A program made the translations under genes and the position numbers. Under the pieces are notes generated by a model. It had not been told where the DNA came from and did no database searches. It was given only the letters and a program-made list of their open reading frames with translations. This document shows positions 6,498 through 18,183 of a stretch of DNA of 60,880 bases, piece after piece (positions within the stretch are counted from its first letter, which is position 1; the number at the start of each line of letters is the position of its first letter). This DNA comes from Longimicrobium sp. (lineage in GTDB: Bacteria; Gemmatimonadota; Gemmatimonadetes; Longimicrobiales; Longimicrobiaceae), in contig DASUYB010000090.1 in assembly GCA_036377595.1 (NCBI GenBank), forward strand, positions 1 through 60,880, in the 5' to 3' direction.

Positions 6498-6914
6498 ATG
6501 GTCGAGCCGAACAACCCCGTTCCCCACTCCAGAGAGGCCACCGTGGCGCATCTCCGCGAGATGGCCGCGGCGCGTGTGGAGAACACCTCGCTCCGCGGAG
6601 TGGCGCGGGAGATCGGGATGAGCCCCACCGGGCTGAAGAAGTTCCTGATGGGCACCGCTCCTTACTCGCCCACGCTGCGCCGCCTGCGCAAGTGGTACCT
6701 GCAGTACGCCGCGCTCCCGTTCGCCGAGGTGACGTACCAGGAGGCGTCGGCCGCGCTGGTGGTGCTGACGCACGACCTGACGTCCGAGGCGCGCCGCACC
6801 GCGGTGGACGGCGTGCTGGACTCGCTGGAGCGCGGCTACGAGGCCGGCGGCCGCGCGCGCCCGCGCTGGGTGGACGAGCTGCGCGCGGAATACGGGACGC
6901 GCAAGCAGAGCTGA
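6498..6914 (+). CDS. Small HTH (XRE/lambda-repressor-like) protein
   Basis: 138-residue cytosolic protein. Residues about 31-52 (LRGVAREIGMSPTGLKKFL) form a helix-turn-helix of the kind found in XRE or resolvase-type DNA-binding domains. The rest is helical and charged with no other recognisable domain, so its role in gene control is inferred from the HTH alone. A GGAGG ribosome-binding site at 6484-6488 supports the ATG at 6498. It stands alone; the inverted repeat at 6431-6455 just upstream could be its own operator. Proteins of this shape recur as multiple paralogues in repeat-rich soil bacteria, from memory rather than from this window. Confidence 0.75.
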   Translation: MVEPNNPVPHSREATVAHLREMAAARVENTSLRGVAREIGMSPTGLKKFLMGTAPYSPTLRRLRKWYLQYAALPFAEVTYQEASAALVVLTHDLTSEARRTAVDGVLDSLERGYEAGGRARPRWVDELRAEYGTRKQS

Positions 6915-7143: not shown

Positions 7144-7800
7144 TCATCCCGCGACGGCGATCACCCGGTCTCCGGCGACCACGTAGATGCGGTCGCCGGG
7201 GGCCACTTCCACGTCGGCGGTGCCGGTGAACGCGCCGAAGGCGGGAAGCACGCCCACACGCGCGCCGAAGTGGAAGCAGGGGAGCCGCTCCCGCTGCCGT
7301 CCCACCCCGCGCAGCTTGACGGAGGGATGGAGATGCCCCGCGAGCACGTACCCCGCGGGCGACTCGAACGGGTGGTGCGAGAGGAGGAAGGGCGGGTCCG
7401 CGCAGGGCTGGTCGCAGCAGTCGATGCGCAGCTCGCCGGGGGGGTCGCCGGCGTGGCGGTCGTGGTTGCCGCGGATCAGCGTCACCGGGAGCGAGGCGTG
7501 CCGTTCGCGCCACGCGCGCACCGTCTCGAGCGTCGCCGGCTGGCGCGAGGTGCGGGCGTGGAAGAGGTCGCCCAGGATGGTCAGCCGCGCGGCGCCCGTG
7601 CGCTCCAGCGCGCGCGAGAGTCGCTCCAGCCCCTCCGCCGTGGTCCCGCCGGGAACGGGAACGCCCGCCGCGCGGAACGCCGCCGCCTTCCCCCAGTGCG
7701 GATCGGCCACCAGCAGCTCGCCGGTGCGCGGTCGGAAGAGCGCGCGCTCGTGAAGGAGGAGCACGCGCTCGCCGGCTACCTCCGTCTCCACGTCCCCCAC
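7144..7800 (-). CDS. pdeM: Ligase-associated metallophosphoesterase (PdeM-like)
   Basis: 218-residue cytosolic calcineurin-like phosphoesterase. Metal-binding motifs are ADPHWGKAAAF (residues 32-42), GDLFHA (77-82), GNHDR (111-115) and AGHLHP, matching the DNA-ligase-associated PdeM family that accompanies an Lhr-type helicase, an exonuclease and an ATP-dependent ligase in repair cassettes. Here the helicase is 6 kb upstream and the other partners are not adjacent. It is the last gene of the VWA-PP2C-kinase operon: a GTG at 7800 lies just past the kinase stop (7812); another in-frame GTG at 7845 would overlap the kinase by 34 bp. I prefer 7800 because family members begin about ten residues before the AGER segment. 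Confidence 0.85.
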   Translation of the reverse strand: MGDVETEVAGERVLLLHERALFRPRTGELLVADPHWGKAAAFRAAGVPVPGGTTAEGLERLSRALERTGAARLTILGDLFHARTSRQPATLETVRAWRERHASLPVTLIRGNHDRHAGDPPGELRIDCCDQPCADPPFLLSHHPFESPAGYVLAGHLHPSVKLRGVGRQRERLPCFHFGARVGVLPAFGAFTGTADVEVAPGDRIYVVAGDRVIAVAG

Positions 7801-7811
7801 CGCCGGTCCGC

Positions 7812-9797
7812 TCAGGGGATGATCACCAGCCGCTGCGCCACCCACACGCTCACCGGCCGCCCGTTCTGCTCGGCCGGCGTGTAGCGCAGGTACGCCACCG
7901 CGGCCGACGCCGCCTGGCGTGCCGCGCGGTGCGTGGACCAGATCACCTGCGACGTGGTCACGTGCCCGTGCTCGTCGATCCGCAGCCAGAACGCCACCGT
8001 GTCCGGTTGGGCGGCGCCCGCCCCGTCAGCCGCGTGTTCGGCATATGCCAGCGCAGCCAGCGCCTCGGCCACCAGCGGCCGATTGGTCAGGACGGGGCGC
8101 TTCTGCACCGACGGCAGCTCGAGCGCATAGTCGTCCAACGGCACCACGTCGGTCATGAAGTCGTTCGGCTCCGGCGGCACGGCCGCGCCGGCCGCGCCCG
8201 AGACGGGGTAGGAGATGGCGTCGTCGAGAAGGAAGTCGGCGATCCCGGTCGTGACGGGCGGATCGTTCGGCGCCGGAGGCGGGTCCGCCGGGGCAGCATC
8301 GCCCGCGCCGGCGTTCTCGCCGGCGTCCGGCGCCGCCTGCGCGGGATCGAACCGCGAATCGTAGATGGGATCGTCGCTCTCGTCCGCGCCCGAGCTGCCG
8401 GCCACCGCGATAAAGGCGAACAGCGCCAGGACGGCGCCCGCGACGATGGCGGAGAAGCGCACGGGTCCCGCCTTCCGGGTCAGCACCACGCCCGTGCACA
8501 TGATCAGGCCCAGGATCCCCAGCAGCTGCAGGAACCCGGCGCCCATGAACATGAGCACGAGGGCCGGGAGCACGTACGTCAGCGGGCTCCGCAGCGGCCC
8601 CGGGCCCTGCTGCGCCACCATCCACTTCAGCGGCTTGTGCACGCCGTACGGCGACACCTTGGGCGCGGCGGGAGCGGCCCCCGCCGCGGCGAACGGCGCC
8701 GCTGCGGGCACGCCCCGGCGCGGCCGGCGTGGACGCGGCGCGGGCACAGAGACCGGCGCGCCGACGGGGAACGGGTCGCGCCCGCCCAGCAGCCGCGCGC
8801 GCTCGCACCACGGGCACGCGCCCAGGTGCGGCGCGAAGCGGTGCAGGGGATTGGCGCCGCATTCGAGGAGACGTCCCTCCGCGGCCTCCAAGGCGTCGCG
8901 CCACTCCGCCGCCGTCGGCCGCGCCGCCGGGTCCGCGTATCCGGCAACGAAGGCACGGACGAACATCTCCCGCACCTCGGCGTCGAGCGCGTCGAAGGGC
9001 GGGGAAAGCCGCGGCGGGTGCACCTCGTCCTCGCCCGACGCGTGGGGGAAGAGGCCGCGGCGGATGCGCTCCTCCACCGGCGCCGCGTCCGCCTCGCCCA
9101 GCCGCACGGCGAACGGGTGCGTCCCCTCCATCAGCAGGAGGAAGAGGAGGACGGCCAGGCCGAAGCGGTCGTGCTCGGGGGCGCGGTCCACCGTGCCGAA
9201 GCTCACCCCCTGCAACTCGGGCGGGGTGAACTCCGCCTTCCCCACCTTGGAGCGGTAGATGCCACCGCCCGTGTCGCGCACCTGAAGCGAGTCGGCATCC
9301 ACCAGCGTCACCCGCGCGTCCGCCGGAGCGACGAGGAGGTTGCTCTCGTTCACGTCGCCCACCACGTAGCCGGCGGCGTGCAGCGCGTCGAACGCCGCGG
9401 CCAGGTTCCGCCCGGCGCGGTGCAGCAGCCCGAAGTGGAAGCCCGGCGCGTGCGCGCGGCGGGTGACCGGGTTGTAGAACTCGAAGACCCGCGGCCCCTC
9501 GGCGAAGGGCATCACGAACCCCGCGAAGCCGCGCTCGTGCAGCAGCACGTCCAGCGGCCAGGCGATCGACGTCCCCTCCGGCATGGCGGGGGGACGGGCC
9601 AGCATCAGCGCCAACTTGCGCGCCCGCTCGATCGTCGGGTCGTGGTAGATCTTGGCGACGAGCCCCGCATCCCCCGGCACGTGGTAGACGACGGCCTCGC
9701 CCCCGGCGCCGATCTCGCGCTCGGGGTCCAGCGCCAGCATCTCCAGCGTGGAGCGGCGGCGGTAGAGGGGGATGGACGGCGCGGCGGTGTCGGTCAC
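7812..9797 (-). CDS. Membrane protein kinase-like protein with Cys/His motif and TonB-like C-terminus (copy 1)
   Basis: 661 residues. The N-terminal kinase-fold domain has a glycine loop (GAGGEAVVY), Lys49 in VAKIY, catalytic GDVNESN (Asp148, Asn153) and metal-binding Asp167 in VDADS, the pattern of the COG4248-type kinases of TerY-P systems. A Cys/His cluster (C313, H319, C328, C331; CPWC) follows. Residues about 400-465 hold two or three membrane spans, then a low-complexity acidic/proline linker, and the last 70 residues (VAFWLRIDEHGHVTTSQV, then YTPAEQNGRPVSVWV) look like a TonB C-terminal domain. It starts at GTG 9797, overlapping the upstream kinase stop by four bases (GTGA). Substrate unknown; the PP2C and VWA neighbours are the likely partners. 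Confidence 0.85.
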   Translation of the reverse strand: MTDTAAPSIPLYRRRSTLEMLALDPEREIGAGGEAVVYHVPGDAGLVAKIYHDPTIERARKLALMLARPPAMPEGTSIAWPLDVLLHERGFAGFVMPFAEGPRVFEFYNPVTRRAHAPGFHFGLLHRAGRNLAAAFDALHAAGYVVGDVNESNLLVAPADARVTLVDADSLQVRDTGGGIYRSKVGKAEFTPPELQGVSFGTVDRAPEHDRFGLAVLLFLLLMEGTHPFAVRLGEADAAPVEERIRRGLFPHASGEDEVHPPRLSPPFDALDAEVREMFVRAFVAGYADPAARPTAAEWRDALEAAEGRLLECGANPLHRFAPHLGACPWCERARLLGGRDPFPVGAPVSVPAPRPRRPRRGVPAAAPFAAAGAAPAAPKVSPYGVHKPLKWMVAQQGPGPLRSPLTYVLPALVLMFMGAGFLQLLGILGLIMCTGVVLTRKAGPVRFSAIVAGAVLALFAFIAVAGSSGADESDDPIYDSRFDPAQAAPDAGENAGAGDAAPADPPPAPNDPPVTTGIADFLLDDAISYPVSGAAGAAVPPEPNDFMTDVVPLDDYALELPSVQKRPVLTNRPLVAEALAALAYAEHAADGAGAAQPDTVAFWLRIDEHGHVTTSQVIWSTHRAARQAASAAVAYLRYTPAEQNGRPVSVWVAQRLVIIP

Positions 9798-11734
9798 GGC
9801 ACGAAGTAGAGGGTGGCCTGGACCCACGTGGGAACCGTGTTGCCGTCCGCCTGCTGCGCGGGGTTGAAGCGCATCGCGGCCGCGGCGCGCAGCGCGGCTT
9901 CATCGAAGCGCGGGTCGGTGGACCGCACCACGTACAGCCCCGTCGAGTTCGGCGTGCCGTCGCGCTCCACCAGGATGCGCACGTCCACGTTGGCGATCAG
10001 CCGCAGGTTGCGCAGCTCGGGGGGATAGTACGTGGCCGCGAGACCCGCGATCTCGCGCGCGTTGACCAGCTCCGGCGACACCGTCACCGACGCGTCGGGA
10101 TATGCCAGCTGCACCGTGGGCTCGGGCATCACCGCGCTCGGCGGCCCCCAGGCGTCGGGCGCGTCCGGGGCGTCGGGGATGTCGAAGCGGTCGGCGAAGG
10201 TGGGACGCGAGCCGTCGGCGTACGACGGCCCGCCGCGCGTCATCGCCGCCACGAACGACCAGACGACGAGCAGGATCACCGCCCAGGCCACCGTGCCCAG
10301 GCGCAGGCGCTGGAGGTTGAGCCCGCCGCTGAAGACCCGGCGCAGGGCCAGGAAGAAGACGATCAGCCCCAGCATGCGCCCTCCGCCGCTGGCGCCGAAG
10401 AGGCAGGTGAGCGCGGCGGGCGGCATCCACACCAGCGGGCTCCCCAGCGCGGCCGGGCCGAACGCGGGCTGCATCCACGCCGGCATGGCGGCCACCGCCG
10501 CGGCGGAGCGGGTGCGCACCCACTGGCCGGCGGCGGAGGGCTGCGGCGGCGGGGACGGCTGGAAGGGGGCCGGGGCCGCCGCCTGCGGCGCGAAGGGCGG
10601 CGCGGAGGCGAACTGCGCGCGGCGGGGGACCGGCGCGGTGTCGTGCACCCGCGCCAGTTCCACCGTGGCGGGGAACGGATCGCGCCCCTGCAGCAGCCGC
10701 GTGCGGTGGCACCAGGGGCAGAACTCCAGCTCCGGCGCGTGGCGGTGCCGCGGATTGGCGGCGCACACGGCCAGCCGCGCCTCGGCCTCGGCCAGCGCCT
10801 CGCGCCACTCGGCGGGCGCGGGGCGGGCGGACGGGTCGCCGTGGCCGGCGACGAACGCGCGCGCGAACATCGCCTGCAGCGCCGGGTCCAGCGCGAAGAA
10901 GGGCGGCGCCAAGCGCGGCGGGCGCACGCCCTCGTCGCCCCCCGCGTAGGGGAACATCCCCCGCGAGATGCGCTCCTCCACCGGCGGCACCTCGGCGCCG
11001 TCGCCCAAGCGGCAGGCGAAGGGGTGCGTTCCCTCCATCAGCAGGAGGAAGAGGAGGGCGGCCAGCCCGAAGCGGTCGTGCTCCTCGCCGCGGTCCACCT
11101 CGCTGAAGTGCGCCCCCTGCAGCTCGGGCGGGGTGAACTCCGCCTTCCCTACGCCGGAGCGGTGGATGGAGCGGCCCCCGCCGTCGCGCACCTGGAACGA
11201 GTCCGCGTCCACCAGCGTGACCGCGGCGGTCGTCGGGTTGACCAGGATGTTGGACTCGTTCACGTCGCCCACCACGTAGCCGTGCGCGTGCAGGCCATGG
11301 AAGGCGGCGGCCAGGTTCACCCCGGCGCGGTGCAGCAGCGCGTAGTCGAACAGCGGCGCGGTGCGGCGCCGCGAGACGGGGTTGTAGAACTCGAACAGGC
11401 GCGGCCCCTCGGCGCGCGGCATCAGGAAGCCCGCGAAGCGTCCGCCGCTGGGCCCAGTGAGCAGATCCACCGGCCAGGCCACCGCCGCCCCCGCGTCCAG
11501 CACGGGGGGATCGGAAAGCATCAGCCCCAGCTTGCGCGCGCGCGCCATGGTCGGCTCGCGGTACAGCTTGGCGACGAGGGCCCAATCCCCCGGCACCTCC
11601 AGCACGCGCGCCTCGCCCCCCGCGCCGATCTCGCGCGTGGTGTCGAACACGATCAACTCGCCCGACGAGCGGCGGCGCAGCACGCGCGCGGCCAGCCCGG
11701 GCGGCAGCTCGAGGACGGGGGCGGGGTCAGCCAT
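9794..11734 (-). CDS. Membrane protein kinase-like protein with Cys/His motif and TonB-like C-terminus (copy 2)
   Basis: 646-residue paralogue of the adjacent kinase, about half identical by eye through the kinase domain. Lys56 (VAKLY), catalytic GDVNESN (Asp157, Asn162) and Asp177 (VDADS) are all present, so it should be active. The CPWC cluster, a proline/alanine-rich linker, membrane segments (LGLIVFFLALRRVF and VAWAVILLVVWSFVAA) and a TonB-like C-terminus (VDVRILVERDGTPNSTGLYV and FDEAALRAAAAMRFNPAQ) follow in the same order. The ATG at 11734 overlaps the PP2C stop, so translation is probably coupled. The pair arose by tandem duplication; linkers and C-termini have diverged much more than the kinase domains, which suggests different partners. 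Confidence 0.85.
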   Translation of the reverse strand: MADPAPVLELPPGLAARVLRRRSSGELIVFDTTREIGAGGEARVLEVPGDWALVAKLYREPTMARARKLGLMLSDPPVLDAGAAVAWPVDLLTGPSGGRFAGFLMPRAEGPRLFEFYNPVSRRRTAPLFDYALLHRAGVNLAAAFHGLHAHGYVVGDVNESNILVNPTTAAVTLVDADSFQVRDGGGRSIHRSGVGKAEFTPPELQGAHFSEVDRGEEHDRFGLAALLFLLLMEGTHPFACRLGDGAEVPPVEERISRGMFPYAGGDEGVRPPRLAPPFFALDPALQAMFARAFVAGHGDPSARPAPAEWREALAEAEARLAVCAANPRHRHAPELEFCPWCHRTRLLQGRDPFPATVELARVHDTAPVPRRAQFASAPPFAPQAAAPAPFQPSPPPQPSAAGQWVRTRSAAAVAAMPAWMQPAFGPAALGSPLVWMPPAALTCLFGASGGGRMLGLIVFFLALRRVFSGGLNLQRLRLGTVAWAVILLVVWSFVAAMTRGGPSYADGSRPTFADRFDIPDAPDAPDAWGPPSAVMPEPTVQLAYPDASVTVSPELVNAREIAGLAATYYPPELRNLRLIANVDVRILVERDGTPNSTGLYVVRSTDPRFDEAALRAAAAMRFNPAQQADGNTVPTWVQATLYFVP

Positions 11735-12500
11735 GGTCGCGCGTCACCAGCACCAGGGTCAGGTCGTCGTCCGAGCGCGCGGTCACCCGCGGCCCGGCCA
11801 GAAAGGCGGAAAGCTGGTCCTCGGCGTCGCGCGGGTCGCGCGCCTCGGCCGCGAAGGCGAAGAGCGGGGCGAAGAAGGGCTCGTGCGGCGTCCGCTCGGG
11901 GTGCTTCAGCGCCAGCCCCTGCAGCCCGTCGGTGAAGATGGCGAGATGACGGGCAGATCCCCGCCACGCCGACCGCTGCGCCGCGTCCACCGCCCCGGGG
12001 GTGGTCAGGAAGACGGTCTCGTTCGCGAACTCGCCCGAGGTCGGCGCGGTGATGGCGCGCATCTCCCCGCCTGCGGCGGAGACGATCACCGCGCCGTCGC
12101 CCACCTGCGCGGCGGTGACGGAATCCGCCGTCACCACCGCGGCGATCAGCGTGGTGTTCAGCTCCCGCATCTCCACCGCGCGCGCCTTCGCCTCGTCCTG
12201 CACGGCCACGAGGGCGGCGCCCATCGCGTGGTCCAGCGCCGCGGTCCAGTTCCCGTCCACCACCGCGGGGGCGGAGGAGACGAGCGAGTCCACCGCCGCC
12301 TTTGCCGCCGCGCGCGCGCCGGCCTCCGCGTGCGCCGCCGACCCCGCGCCGTCGGCGACGGCGAGGGCCACGGCGCCGCCGGGAAGGCGGCGCCAGGCGT
12401 GCGCGTCCTGGCAGGGAAGCTCGTTGCGCGCGTGGCTGGTGCCGCGCACGCTGGCGCCCAGCACCCGCCAGGCGGCGGCCGGCGCGGCCACGGGCGTCAC
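11727..12500 (-). CDS. PP2C-family serine/threonine phosphatase (TerY-P-type)
   Basis: 257-residue cytosolic metal-dependent phosphatase. It has the PP2C motifs ADGAGSAAHAEAG, AAQVGDGAVIV, IFTDGLQGLAL and the C-terminal SDDDLTLVL, with the shortened, divergent layout typical of the phosphatases found beside VWA (TerY-like) and kinase genes. It would reverse the action of the two downstream kinases. Translation starts at GTG 12500, which overlaps the stop of the VWA gene (GTGA); its own stop lies inside the first codons of the next kinase. Both overlaps indicate stoichiometric, coupled synthesis. The N-terminal segment WRVLGASVRGTSHARN is also usual for this subfamily. Confidence 0.88.
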   Translation of the reverse strand: MTPVAAPAAAWRVLGASVRGTSHARNELPCQDAHAWRRLPGGAVALAVADGAGSAAHAEAGARAAAKAAVDSLVSSAPAVVDGNWTAALDHAMGAALVAVQDEAKARAVEMRELNTTLIAAVVTADSVTAAQVGDGAVIVSAAGGEMRAITAPTSGEFANETVFLTTPGAVDAAQRSAWRGSARHLAIFTDGLQGLALKHPERTPHEPFFAPLFAFAAEARDPRDAEDQLSAFLAGPRVTARSDDDLTLVLVTRDHG

Positions 12501-13171
12501 AGTTCGGCCCACCCGGTGGGCGCCAGCTTCACCGTCTCGTCGGGCCGCGAGTGGGCCACGGACTGCATGCTGCGCGACAGCCAGACGAACATCTCCCTGA
12601 AGTCCAGTCCCTTCAGCCGCAGCGGCTGGCGCACGGCGATCTTCGCCAGCGCCTCCATGTTGGCGTTCTCCACGCCCACGGCGAAGAAGGCCACCTGCTT
12701 CTTCGTCTCCGCCTCCTGCAGGCGGCGCGTGGCGCGCGCCACGGCGTCGGGCGCCTCGCCCTGCGGCTCGCCGTCGGTGACCAGGAAGATCCACGGGCGG
12801 TAGTAGGCCACGTCGTAGGCGCGGTAGCGGGCCTTGCGCTCCTCCACCATGTCGAGGCCCTTCTCGATGGCCGCGCCGATGTGCGTCATCCCCTCGGCGT
12901 TCAGGAAGGGGATGTCGAAGCGGTCGGGGCTGACGAAGTCCTGCACCACGCGGATGCGGTTGTCGAAGGCGACGACGGCGATCTCCACGCGGCGCGCGGC
13001 CAGCGGGTCCACGGCCAGGTCGAAGCGGAAGGCCTCGAGGCCCGCGAGCATGGCGTCGAGCGGGGCGCCCTGCATGGAGCCGGAGGTATCGAGCAGGAGC
13101 ACGCACGGGCAGCGCGGCTCGGGGTTCTCGGCGAACTCGACGGCGTCTTCCAGCTTCGCGAGCAGCGACAT
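12497..13171 (-). CDS. VWA-domain protein, TerY-like
   Basis: 224-residue protein made almost entirely of a von Willebrand A domain. A complete MIDAS site is visible: DTSGSM at residues 28-33, the Thr in GMTHIG, and the Asp of LVTDGEP. This single-domain cytosolic form with CPCVLLLDTS at the first strand is the TerY type, the adaptor of TerY-P (VWA, PP2C, kinase) triads linked to tellurite and stress responses; the Ter proteins themselves are not in the window. It is the first gene of a minus-strand operon continuing to pdeM. The ATG at 13171 gives a normal family N-terminus; another ATG at 13189 with six extra residues is possible, and the sequence GGAGGT lies between them. Confidence 0.88.
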   Translation of the reverse strand: MSLLAKLEDAVEFAENPEPRCPCVLLLDTSGSMQGAPLDAMLAGLEAFRFDLAVDPLAARRVEIAVVAFDNRIRVVQDFVSPDRFDIPFLNAEGMTHIGAAIEKGLDMVEERKARYRAYDVAYYRPWIFLVTDGEPQGEAPDAVARATRRLQEAETKKQVAFFAVGVENANMEALAKIAVRQPLRLKGLDFREMFVWLSRSMQSVAHSRPDETVKLAPTGWAEL

Positions 13172-13818: not shown

Positions 13819-16356
13819 CTACTTCATCTTCGGCTTCTTCGGCCGCTTCGCCTCGCCCTGGTCGGCATAGCGCTCGAGCGCCACCTGCATGCGCTGCACG
13901 CGGTCGGCCAGCGACTCGCTGGTAACGGCCTCGCGCGTGCGGTCGACCAGGAGCGGGAAGGCCAGCGGCGGCGTGCGCGGCGGCTCGGTGATCACCACGC
14001 GGCTCTCCGACAGCCGCTCCAGCGTGCGGCCCAGGCGGCTGCTTTCCAGCTGCCGCTCCAGCACCTCACGATGCGCCTGGCTTACCAGCAGGTTCCCCGG
14101 GTCGTAGCGGGTGAACACGTCGAAGAACAGCCCGCTGCTGGCCTGGATCTGCCGCGTGCTCTTGTTCGCGCCGGGGAAGCCCTGGAACACCAGGCCTGCC
14201 ACGCGCGCGATCTCGCGGAACTGGCGGCGCGCCATCTCCGTGGCGTTCAGCGACGCGGGGACGTCGTCGAACAGGTTTTCCGGCCGGAGAAGTCCCGCCG
14301 CGAGCGCATCCTCCAGCGGCGCGGGATCGGGCGACAGCAGCTCGATCCCGTAGTCGTTCGCCGCCATGGTGAAGGAGATGGGCTTCAGGCGCGAAATGCG
14401 GTACGCGAGCAGCGCCGCCAGCCCCTCGTGCACCAGCCGCCCCTCGAAGGGGAAGAAGAAAAGGTGGTGCCCCTCGCGCGTCTTCACCCGCTCGATCAGC
14501 AGCTCGTCGGCCGCGGGGATGCGTGACCAGCGCGCCTGCACCTCCAGGATCGCGCGCACCGCCTGCATCTCCGGCCCGCGGAGGATGCCGTTCGACGCCT
14601 CCTCCAGCCGCCGCCTGAGCGCCGCCGCCAGCTCCGTCGACAGCGGCATCCGGCTCCCCATCCAGCGCGGGATGTAGGCGCCCTTCGCCGGCGCGCGGCG
14701 CACCCACGCCTTCATGTCGCGCACGCGGACGAACTCCAGCGGCTTGCCGGAGAAGACGAAGCGGTCGCCCGGCTTCAGGCGGGCGATGAAGCCCTCCTCC
14801 ACCGTCCCCAGCCGCGGCCCGTTCAGGTACTGCACGGCGATCGCCGCGTCGCTCACGATCGTCCCGATCGCCATCCTGTGCCGTTTGGCGACCTGACGGC
14901 TCTCGACCGTGTAGAGGCCGTCGCGCTCGACCACGCGCTGGAACTCGGGGTAGGCGCGCAGCGCGTCGCCGCCGCGGGTGACGAAGTCGATCACCCACGC
15001 CCACTCGTCGTCCATCAGCCCGGCGTAGGCGCGGGTGGTGCGCACCTCGTCGCGCAGCTCGTCGCGCCGGAAGCCGCCGCCCACCGCGACGGTGACCACG
15101 TGCTGCGCCAGCAGGTCCAGCGGCCGCTCGACGGGGAGGCGGCTCTCCACCGCGGCCGCCTCGACGCCATCGCGCGCGGCGGCCACCTCGATCAATTCCA
15201 GCGCGTGCGTGGGGATGCAGGTCACACGGCTGGCGACGCCCGGGCGGTGGCCGCTCCGCCCCGCGCGCTGCAGCAGCCGCGCGACGCCCTTGGGGCTCCC
15301 CACCTGGAGCACTCGGTCCACGGGTGAGAAGTCTACACCCAGGTCCAGCGACGAGGTGGCCACCACGCAGCGGAGGCGGCCCGAACGGAGCCCGCTCTCC
15401 ACGAAATCGCGCGTCTTGCGGTCCAGCGAGCCGTGATGGAGCGCGATCTCGCCGGCCCATTCGGGGCGCGCGGCGAGGATGGCCTGGAACCAGATCTCCG
15501 TCTGCGAGCGCGTGTTGGTGAAGACGATGGCGCTCTCGGCCGCGTCGAGGACGTCGAGCAGCTGCGGCAGCATCTGCGTCCCCAGGTGGCCGGCCCAGGG
15601 AAAGCGCTCGATCTCGGGGGGGATGAGGGAATCGACGATCACCGTCTTCGGCACCAGCCCGCGGACGATGCGCGAGGCGCCGGCGCGCGGCCCGGCGCCG
15701 AGGAGCGTCTCCAGCGCCTCCTGCAGGTTGCCGATGGTGGCCGACAGCCCCCAGGTGCGCAGCTCCGGCCGCCAGTGCCGGAGCCGGGCGAGGCACAGCT
15801 CGGTCTGCACGCCGCGCTTGGTGCCCATCAGCTCGTGCCACTCGTCCACGACCACCGCGCGCAGGTCGGCGAAGAGCGCCGCCGCGTCCTCGCGCGAGAG
15901 GAGCAGCGACAGGCTCTCCGGTGTCGTGATCAGCGCGGTCGGCAGGCGGTCGCGCTGGCGGGCGCGGACGGCGGCGGGGGTGTCGCCGGTGCGCGGCTCC
16001 AGCGTCCAGGGGATGCCGAGCTCCTTCAGCGGCAGCCGCAGCGCCTCCTCGGTGTCGGCGGCCAGCGCGCGCAGCGGGGTGATCCACAGCACGCGCAGCG
16101 GCGGCGCGCCGCGGAGCGTGGGCCCGGCGGCGTTCTCGCGCAGCCACTCGAGGAGCGGGCCGAGCCAGGCGGCGTACGTCTTCCCCGTCCCCGTGGCCGC
16201 GTGGACGAGCCCGCTCTCGCCCGCCAGATACGATTCCCACACCTCGCGCTGAAACGCGAACGGCTCCCACCCGCGCCCCGCGAACCACGCCAGCGCCGGC
16301 GCCAGGGGGTCGGGATCGGGAGATGCCGTTCGGCGTGCGGCGGCGCTGCGGGCCAC
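13819..16356 (-). CDS. Ligase-associated DEXH-box DNA helicase (Lhr-like)
   Basis: 845-residue SF2 helicase. The Walker A motif ATGTGKT is at residues 54-60, the DEXH box reads DEWH at 171-174, motif III is LSATIGN, and motif VI reads QRAGRSGHRPG. The winged-helix and C-terminal Lhr core region (PGDRFVFSGKPLEFVRVRD) is complete, so it belongs to the family found with PdeM, an exonuclease and an ATP-dependent DNA ligase in DNA-damage cassettes. Its usual partner PdeM is encoded 6 kb away at the end of the kinase operon; no ligase or exonuclease adjoins it. The GTG at 16356 was chosen because a CGGAGG ribosome-binding site precedes it by about ten bases; the frame is open to 16407. Confidence 0.92.
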   Translation of the reverse strand: MARSAAARRTASPDPDPLAPALAWFAGRGWEPFAFQREVWESYLAGESGLVHAATGTGKTYAAWLGPLLEWLRENAAGPTLRGAPPLRVLWITPLRALAADTEEALRLPLKELGIPWTLEPRTGDTPAAVRARQRDRLPTALITTPESLSLLLSREDAAALFADLRAVVVDEWHELMGTKRGVQTELCLARLRHWRPELRTWGLSATIGNLQEALETLLGAGPRAGASRIVRGLVPKTVIVDSLIPPEIERFPWAGHLGTQMLPQLLDVLDAAESAIVFTNTRSQTEIWFQAILAARPEWAGEIALHHGSLDRKTRDFVESGLRSGRLRCVVATSSLDLGVDFSPVDRVLQVGSPKGVARLLQRAGRSGHRPGVASRVTCIPTHALELIEVAAARDGVEAAAVESRLPVERPLDLLAQHVVTVAVGGGFRRDELRDEVRTTRAYAGLMDDEWAWVIDFVTRGGDALRAYPEFQRVVERDGLYTVESRQVAKRHRMAIGTIVSDAAIAVQYLNGPRLGTVEEGFIARLKPGDRFVFSGKPLEFVRVRDMKAWVRRAPAKGAYIPRWMGSRMPLSTELAAALRRRLEEASNGILRGPEMQAVRAILEVQARWSRIPAADELLIERVKTREGHHLFFFPFEGRLVHEGLAALLAYRISRLKPISFTMAANDYGIELLSPDPAPLEDALAAGLLRPENLFDDVPASLNATEMARRQFREIARVAGLVFQGFPGANKSTRQIQASSGLFFDVFTRYDPGNLLVSQAHREVLERQLESSRLGRTLERLSESRVVITEPPRTPPLAFPLLVDRTREAVTSESLADRVQRMQVALERYADQGEAKRPKKPKMK

Positions 16357-16458
16357 GGGCGAGGTGCCTCCGGGGTGATGGGATCGACGGCGGACGTGGA
16401 TTCCCACGCGCGTCCACTCTGTCGCGGTGGCAACGATCGGGCCGCGGCGCGGCGAGGG

Positions 16459-16700: not shown

Positions 16701-17450
16701 TCAGTCCGCGTCGAGGACGCGGACGAGGACGGCGGTGATGTTGTCGCGGCCGCCGCGCTCGTTGGCGCCGATGATGAGCGCCGCCACCAGCTCGTGCAGC
16801 TCGTCCGGGCGGACGAGCACGCGGCGCAGCATGCGGTCGGTGAGCATGCCGGTCAGCCCGTCGCTGGCCAGCAGCGCGATGTCGCCGGGAAGGAGGGTCC
16901 CCGCGTAGACGTCCGGCTCGTCGAGCGAGTCGGCGCCCAGCGCGCGCGTCAGCACGTGCGACAGGTGGTGCCGCCGGGCGCCACGCTCGGTCATCCGCCC
17001 CGCGTCGACCTCGCGCTGCACCCAGGTGTGGTCGCGCGTCACCTGCGTCAGCTCGCCGTCGCGCAGCACGTAGGCGCGGCTGTCGCCGATGTGGCCCAGG
17101 CGGAAGCTGCCGTCGTCGCACACCACCAGCGCGGTCATGGTGGTGCCCATCCCCTTCGTCTCGGGCTTGGTGAAGGAGTAGTTGAGGATGGCGCGGTGCG
17201 CGGCGTGGAAGCTCTCGCGCATGGCCGCCTCCAGCAGGTCGGTGCGCAGCCCGCCGTCCACCCCCTGCCGCAGCGCCGACCCGACGGACTCGGCCGCCAG
17301 CGCGCTGGCGATCTCGCCCGCGGCGTGGCCGCCCATCCCGTCGGCCACGAGGAAGACGCCGCGCGGCGCGTCGATCAGGAACGAGTCCTCGTTGTGCGGC
17401 CGCACGCGCCCCACGTCGGTGGCGCCGGCCGCCTCCCAGCTCACCTTCAC
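16701..17450 (-). CDS. PP2C-family serine/threonine phosphatase (Stp/PrpC type)
   Basis: 249-residue cytosolic Mn/Mg-dependent phosphatase. All canonical motifs are present: VRPHNEDSF near the start, VADGMGGHAAGEIAS, GHIGDSRAYV, LLASDGLTGML and GGRDNITAVLV at the end. This is the classical PrpC/Stp form that dephosphorylates Hanks-type kinase substrates, distinct from the truncated TerY-P phosphatase at 11727-12500. It starts at GTG 17450, overlapping the stop of the FHA gene by four bases (GTGA), so the two are co-translated. No classical Hanks kinase lies in the window; its targets may be the products of the kinase operon downstream on the same strand, which is inference. Confidence 0.93.
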   Translation of the reverse strand: MKVSWEAAGATDVGRVRPHNEDSFLIDAPRGVFLVADGMGGHAAGEIASALAAESVGSALRQGVDGGLRTDLLEAAMRESFHAAHRAILNYSFTKPETKGMGTTMTALVVCDDGSFRLGHIGDSRAYVLRDGELTQVTRDHTWVQREVDAGRMTERGARRHHLSHVLTRALGADSLDEPDVYAGTLLPGDIALLASDGLTGMLTDRMLRRVLVRPDELHELVAALIIGANERGGRDNITAVLVRVLDAD

Positions 17451-18001
17451 GGCCGCCCCGCCTGCGCGGCCGGTGCGTCGGTGGGCGGCGGCAGCTGCCG
17501 GGGCACGGGCGCCGGCGCGCTCATCTGCACGATCGCGTAGGCCAGCAGCGCCAGCAGGATCACGATCAGCACGGCCAGCCAGAGCGGGAAGCGGAAGCCG
17601 CGCCGCTCGTCCTTGAGCGCCACCTCCTTCGCGGGCGGCACGTACGCCGCGCGCGCCGCCTCCAGGTCCGCCGACGCCACCTCGCGGAACTGCAGCTTCA
17701 CCCCGCCGAAGCGCACGGTCGACCCGTACGGCAGCGGCGTGGGAACGTTGGGCGCCAGCTTCACCCCTTCGATCGCCGTCCCGTTGGTGGAGCCCAGGTC
17801 GGTCAGCCGCCAGGCGCCCAGGTCGAACTCCAGCTGCGCGTGGCGGTCGCTCACCGAGTCGTCGTCGATCACCACGTCCGCGCCGGCGCCGCGCCCCACC
17901 GTCACCACCGGCGCGGGCACGGGGATCTGCTCGCCGTAGCGCGGACCCGCGGCAATGCCGAAGGTGGCGAGCGGACCGGCCTGCGGGAGGTTGGTGGACA
18001 T
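17447..18001 (-). CDS. FHA-domain protein with a C-terminal membrane anchor
   Basis: 184 residues. Residues about 30-115 form a forkhead-associated domain with GRGAGADVVI, the phosphothreonine-binding S50..R53-H54 pair (VSDRHAQL) and STNGT at 71-75; such domains bind phosphothreonine peptides. After a charged linker a single hydrophobic segment (LWLAVLIVILLALLAYAI, about residues 140-158) anchors it in the membrane, followed by a short proline-rich tail. The ATG at 18001 has AGGAG about 12 bases upstream. Its coupling to the PP2C gene points to phosphorylation sensing next to a phosphatase. The partner kinase is not identified. Confidence 0.9.
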   Translation of the reverse strand: MSTNLPQAGPLATFGIAAGPRYGEQIPVPAPVVTVGRGAGADVVIDDDSVSDRHAQLEFDLGAWRLTDLGSTNGTAIEGVKLAPNVPTPLPYGSTVRFGGVKLQFREVASADLEAARAAYVPPAKEVALKDERRGFRFPLWLAVLIVILLALLAYAIVQMSAPAPVPRQLPPPTDAPAAQAGRP

Positions 18002-18094
18002 GGCCGTGCGGAGCTCCTGGCGTGGAAACGACGTTCGCTGCAACGCTTTGCGGAAGGGCGGGAACGTATCGCGGGCGCCGCGAAGGGGCAAGAC

Positions 18095-18120
18095 AAGTGC
18101 CCAGTGCCCAGTGCCGGGTG
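18095..18120. repeat. Tandem heptamer repeat, GTGCCCA type, copy 2
   Basis: AAGTGCCCAGTGCCCAGTGC, the same unit as at 1921-1949, about 95 bp before the FHA start. Confidence 0.7.
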
Positions 18121-18183
18121 ACAGTCATCTACCCTGCTGGGCCGTCAAACGTGGAGCCGCAGCGTCTCCCCGCGCTGAGGTCT

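Follow-up and report, generated by a model that had tools for sequence, protein, structure and literature searches.

Gene organization of the locus

The window analyzed here is a stretch of 60,880 nucleotides from the genome of a Longimicrobium sp. (G000). On its minus strand, from position 13171 to 7144, the genes for a VWA protein, a PP2C-type phosphatase, two kinases (K1 and K2) and PdeM form one overlapping unit, with a helicase gene upstream. The genes, their order, their active-site residues and the TonB_C homology described below were established from the sequence. The following features were identified:

13819..16407, minus strand: ligase-associated DEXH box helicase, upstream of the unit (TIGR04121, E 0, 1128.7 bits)
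12497..13171, minus strand: first gene, VWA protein of the YegL/TerY type (PF00092, 3.3e-13; 53% identity to E. coli YegL)
11727..12500, minus strand: PP2C-type phosphatase of the PphC type (PF13672, PP2C_2, 6.1e-50; 35% identity to PphC)
9794..11734, minus strand: YegI-type kinase K1, 646 amino acids, with a C324-H330-C339-C342 site, a Pro-rich linker, three predicted transmembrane (TM) helices and TonB_C at residues 568-645
9797..10114, minus strand: TonB_C region of K1 (PF03544, 6e-10; 79 bits with a profile of non-kinase domains; full-length model with pLDDT about 95)
7812..9797, minus strand: kinase K2, a paralogue of K1 with the same layout and a TonB_C-like tail (coordinates set by the coupled GTG start)
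7815..8168, minus strand: TonB_C region of K2, diverged (46 bits with the non-kinase profile; predicted fold matching TonB C-terminal domains, Z 9.9)
7144..7845, minus strand: last gene, PdeM, ligase-associated DNA damage response endonuclease (TIGR04123, 2.4e-66; start approximate)

The PP2C and K2 genes each start with a GTG that overlaps the stop codon of the preceding gene (GTGA at the VWA/PP2C and K1/K2 junctions), and the ATG of K1 lies 8 nt inside the end of the PP2C gene. The kinase and pdeM frames overlap or almost abut in all six Longimicrobium genomes that carry the VWA, PP2C and kinase genes (hereafter the module). An earlier note on this DNA had described a VWA protein with an intact MIDAS, overlaps by GTGA or similar and PdeM at the end of the unit, and all of these were found.

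The helicase and VWA genes are separated by 648 bp in the window, and an open frame of 336-374 amino acids was observed between them in the genomes G251 and G299 (L040:12188-13198, L070:7837-8961). A second PP2C-type phosphatase, Stp1/IreP-like and slightly below the cut-off, is encoded upstream of the helicase (window 16701-18128) and is also found in the related genome G300. Beside pdeM on the opposite strand lies a small ORF of 138 amino acids (window 6498-6914, plus strand; 82% identity in G300), which had no NCBIfam match and has by eye the look of a DNA-binding protein.

A TerY-P type trio with paralogous kinases

The trio of VWA, PP2C and kinase genes is of the TerY-P type, as proposed earlier. 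The MIDAS of the VWA protein is intact (DTSGS at residue 28, T95 and TDG at 132), the PP2C gene is adjacent, and the kinases carry catalytic residues followed by a putative zinc-type site. Nine positions (G37, G39, K56, D157, N162, D176, E204, D220 and R304 in K1 numbering) are present in both K1 and K2, bearing out the note's two paralogous kinases with their catalytic residues; the alphaC Glu alone could not be placed by eye. Structure comparison matched the whole K1 model with protein kinases. K1 and K2 share about 51% identity from end to end, and 67% when the kinase part is compared alone. Since K1 paired in the tree with one kinase of G300 and K2 with the other, their duplication predates the split between G000 and G300. 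Of the six Longimicrobium genomes with the module, just two encode a pair of kinases and four a single one, which led us to abandon the idea that both are required.

The kinase domain is followed by a C-x5-H-x8-CPWC site that was kept in 74 relatives, almost all of them from other phyla, which marks it at sequence level as a hallmark of the family. A zinc ribbon has been described in TerY-P kinases (PMC11090510), and the site is in keeping with it. The CPWC noticed earlier in each kinase is indeed present, but it is not peculiar to these proteins because it belongs to the site common to the whole family, and its interpretation as a special redox motif was abandoned.

The closest characterized system is YegL-PphC-YegI of E. 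coli, with 53% identity for the VWA protein, 35% for PP2C and 37% for K2 (kinase and Cys/His region). Both systems share the three gene families in the order VWA, PP2C and kinase, the C-x5-H-x8-CPWC site and a membrane kinase. After the Cys/His site, however, YegI has two clear TM segments, a coiled coil and an HhH stretch recognized by eye, whereas the Longimicrobium kinases have three predicted TM helices and end in TonB_C instead of HhH, and G000 encodes two of them. TerY-P triads likewise combine VWA, PP2C and a kinase with a Cys/His site, and differ from this locus in that a membrane segment and TonB_C follow the site here. No match to TerD-family genes was found in G000 (96% complete), and the tellurite role associated with TerY-P units in the earlier note was therefore dropped.

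TonB-like tails and predicted membrane anchor of the kinases

The Pfam profile TonB_C (PF03544) matched residues 568-645 of K1 above its curated cut-off (E 6e-10), and the K2 match was slightly under it (23.6 bits against 24.6; E 7.5e-5). With an independent profile, built exclusively from TonB_C domains of gemmatimonad proteins other than kinases, K1 scored 79 bits, K2 46 bits and all ten fused tails between 31 and 106 bits. Shuffled versions of six tails (500 per tail) reached at most 7.2 bits, and chance similarity was rejected on this comparison. By these sequence comparisons, both tails are homologous to the TonB C-terminal domain, in keeping with the TonB-like ends first noticed on the two kinases.

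The TonB fold of the tails is a prediction. In the fold comparison that the earlier note had proposed, the K2 tail model (mean pLDDT 84, pTM 0.74) matched solved TonB C-terminal domains, the best being Pseudomonas TonB 6i97 (Z 9.9, rmsd 2.3, 87 residues), followed by other TonB and TolA domains. This fold result depends in part on the sequence match, as the alignment used for the model contained other TonB_C sequences, and a profile of that mixed alignment finds TonB C-terminal domains in the PDB by sequence (1e-9). The K2 tail has no YPP stretch of the kind found in other tails, and its binding may be changed or lost.

In the K1 model, three TM helices (about residues 433-446, 450-469 and 479-499) precede TonB_C, and the loop between helices 2 and 3 is positively charged. 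Based on hydropathy, charge and this one model, the kinase and Cys/His site are predicted to be cytoplasmic and the TonB_C tail periplasmic, consistent with the transmembrane segments and the arrangement across the envelope suggested before. The distance from membrane to TonB_C is only about 50 residues in some relatives. No SxxxH motif was found in the TM segments of K1 and K2. The kinases thus resemble TonB energy transducers in their C-terminal fold, as judged by sequence and predicted structure, but have an N-terminal kinase, no SxxxH and a three-helix anchor instead of one helix.

Other TonB_C proteins in the genome

G000 has 30 TonB_C matches. Four of these proteins have a TM segment containing SxxxH, like energy-transducing TonB, several look secreted with TonB_C alone, and two are M56 proteins. 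On contig C18 (L220:1449-5226), two adjacent M56 (BlaR1-type) proteins each have a C-terminal TonB_C, one of them slightly under the cut-off. Like the trio kinases, these M56 proteins are membrane proteins that end in TonB_C; they belong to a sensor family and have a peptidase in place of the kinase. Contig C89 encodes a Hanks-type Ser/Thr kinase that ends in TonB_C (L219:2462-5104; Pkinase 1.6e-27, TonB_C 2.2e-12), and similar proteins were found in G300 (L242) and G286 (L243). It shares with K1 and K2 the order of N-terminal kinase, TM and C-terminal TonB_C, but belongs to another kinase branch, has one predicted TM and a long Pro/Gln-rich linker, and no trio was seen with it.

One TonB_C gene lies beside four ExbD genes (L192/L221; L221:1388-2287, contig C198), and the TM segment of its product likewise lacks SxxxH. 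The absence of SxxxH alone is therefore not decisive, and the TonB of G000 may contact ExbB/ExbD differently.

Distribution and origin of the TonB_C tail

To place the kinases in their phylum, we searched 395 Gemmatimonadota genomes with the kinase part alone (strong match, E below 1e-60), as a survey with the whole of K1 had been clouded by TonB_C matches. Strong matches were found in nine genomes, namely six Longimicrobium, G350 (also Longimicrobiaceae), G135 and G245; the remaining matches were far weaker and were treated as kinases of other kinds. All six Longimicrobium genomes and G350, which are every Longimicrobiaceae member with a complete tail, have TonB_C, and the G350 tail has two such domains, the first one weak. 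In G245, the kinase and Cys/His site are followed by TM, an HhH-like region, another TM and then TonB_C, which is missing from the HhH-tailed kinase of its sister G135.

Phylogenetic analysis placed G245 and G135, with good support, within a branch of HhH-tailed kinases distant from Longimicrobiaceae. The Longimicrobiaceae kinases formed a separate, well-supported branch beside those of Armatimonadota, Poribacteria and Planktothrix, some of which are WD40-tailed. Among these sister trio kinases, WD40 beta-propeller tails follow the membrane segment in L078, L084 and L085 (including Chthonomonadaceae and Poribacteria). Because G245 groups with HhH-tailed kinases and apart from Longimicrobiaceae, the simplest reading is that the TonB_C tail was gained twice, probably a second time in G245 after the HhH-like region; an ancient tail followed by many losses would be a possible, less simple alternative.

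Outside this survey, TonB_C was present in only one of 74 fetched kinases with named organisms, that of Longimicrobium; the sequence of one Gemmatimonadetes MAG (L076) ends before the kinase tail. Pfam detected HHH_5 in only 6 of the 74 relatives, which makes it a weak test for HhH. Wherever the contig extends far enough, the VWA and PP2C genes lie ahead of the kinase gene in the majority of relatives, which come from many phyla. The trio itself is hence of a known kind and the TonB_C tail is what is new, as judged against an incomplete literature coverage, largely outside the subscription journals, in which no paper on a kinase-TonB_C fusion was found.

Association with DNA-repair genes

The module sits between the helicase and PdeM, a connection with repair that is absent from the earlier note. 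This arrangement was observed in 6 of 10 Longimicrobium genomes. Three others have the helicase and pdeM near each other without the module, and the tenth yielded only pdeM within the region read. All ten genomes encode PdeM and the ligase, whether they have the module or not, and the ligase-associated DNA ligase is close by on the same contig in G273, G251 and G299. Outside the genus, no Lhr or PdeM was found within the 20 kb read around the G135 and G245 modules, and the G350 contig ends inside its module; for these reasons, the link with repair may be purely positional.

The trio could also serve in anti-phage defence or stress responses, as a TerY-P module whose output would be the processing of nucleic acids by PdeM and the helicase. 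TerY-P trios are found alongside CoCoNuT and further defence systems (PMC11090510), and the present one is flanked on both sides by genes belonging to the ligase-associated DNA damage cluster. However, PADLOC gave only weak kinase matches (PD-T4-6, MkoA), and PdeM and the ligase occur throughout the genus irrespective of the module. We consider this reading rather unlikely.

Proposed role of the TonB_C-tailed kinases

Our preferred reading, to which we assign a probability of roughly 0.58, is a unit of the YegL-PphC-YegI (TerY-P) type whose kinases have become membrane receptors, with its output or timing tied to repair through PdeM. We infer a sensing role, and with it a ligand, substrates and an effect on repair, along the following lines. 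The kinase and Cys/His site would lie in the cytoplasm, the three TM helices would serve as anchor and the TonB-type fold would face the periplasm, where the tail would most likely bind an envelope partner, such as a peptide strand from a TonB-dependent transporter. Partner binding would alter kinase activity, the PP2C phosphatase would undo the phosphorylation, and the VWA protein would be a likely scaffold or substrate. In Longimicrobium, output or timing would be coupled to DNA repair via PdeM at the end of the overlapping unit. For a phospho-relay in the phosphotransfer sense, as worded in the earlier note, we found no basis.

Alternatively, the tail might be a passive domain for anchoring or localization that holds the kinase at one place in the envelope, in which case the cytoplasmic Cys/His site or the VWA protein would receive the signals. 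Conservation of the Cys/His site throughout the family, alongside varying tails (HhH, WD40, TonB_C), fits such a role, as does the divergence of the K2 tail. Nevertheless, we hold it to be doubtful, as the TM helices already provide an anchor and, in this group of bacteria, TonB_C recurs on signalling enzymes that are unrelated to one another.

The proposal that the kinases push on an outer-membrane partner, that is, an inside-out actuator whose TonB-like tail pushes or pulls when driven by phosphorylation, has in its favour the fold match to TonB domains solved in transporter complexes (6i97, 2gsk, 2grx) and the ExbD genes of the genome, but it fits poorly with TM segments devoid of SxxxH, an anchor of three helices instead of one, the short distance from membrane to domain in some relatives and the two TonB_C domains of G350, so that we consider it improbable, though by inference and not by disproof.

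The same absence of SxxxH, the three helices and the double TonB_C of G350, together with TonB_C on M56/BlaR1-type proteins and a Hanks kinase, make sensing or docking a likelier function of the tail than force transduction. The reading of the kinases as receptors is further supported by the WD40 repeats at the matching place in sister kinases and by TonB_C after added membrane segments in G245 as well. A bolder version, which we regard as a long shot, is that the TonB-type domain reads TonB boxes or the load state of outer-membrane transporters and signals through the YegL/PphC trio to PdeM and the ligase-associated helicase. If true, this would be envelope-to-genome signalling of a kind undescribed in the literature examined.

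The tail, predicted to be periplasmic, also ends unrelated kinase and M56 proteins in gemmatimonads, which suggests that many of their TonB_C proteins are sensors or docking proteins and not energy transducers. As the trio is spread over many phyla, a binding partner of TonB_C, once found, would make the input of the trio testable.
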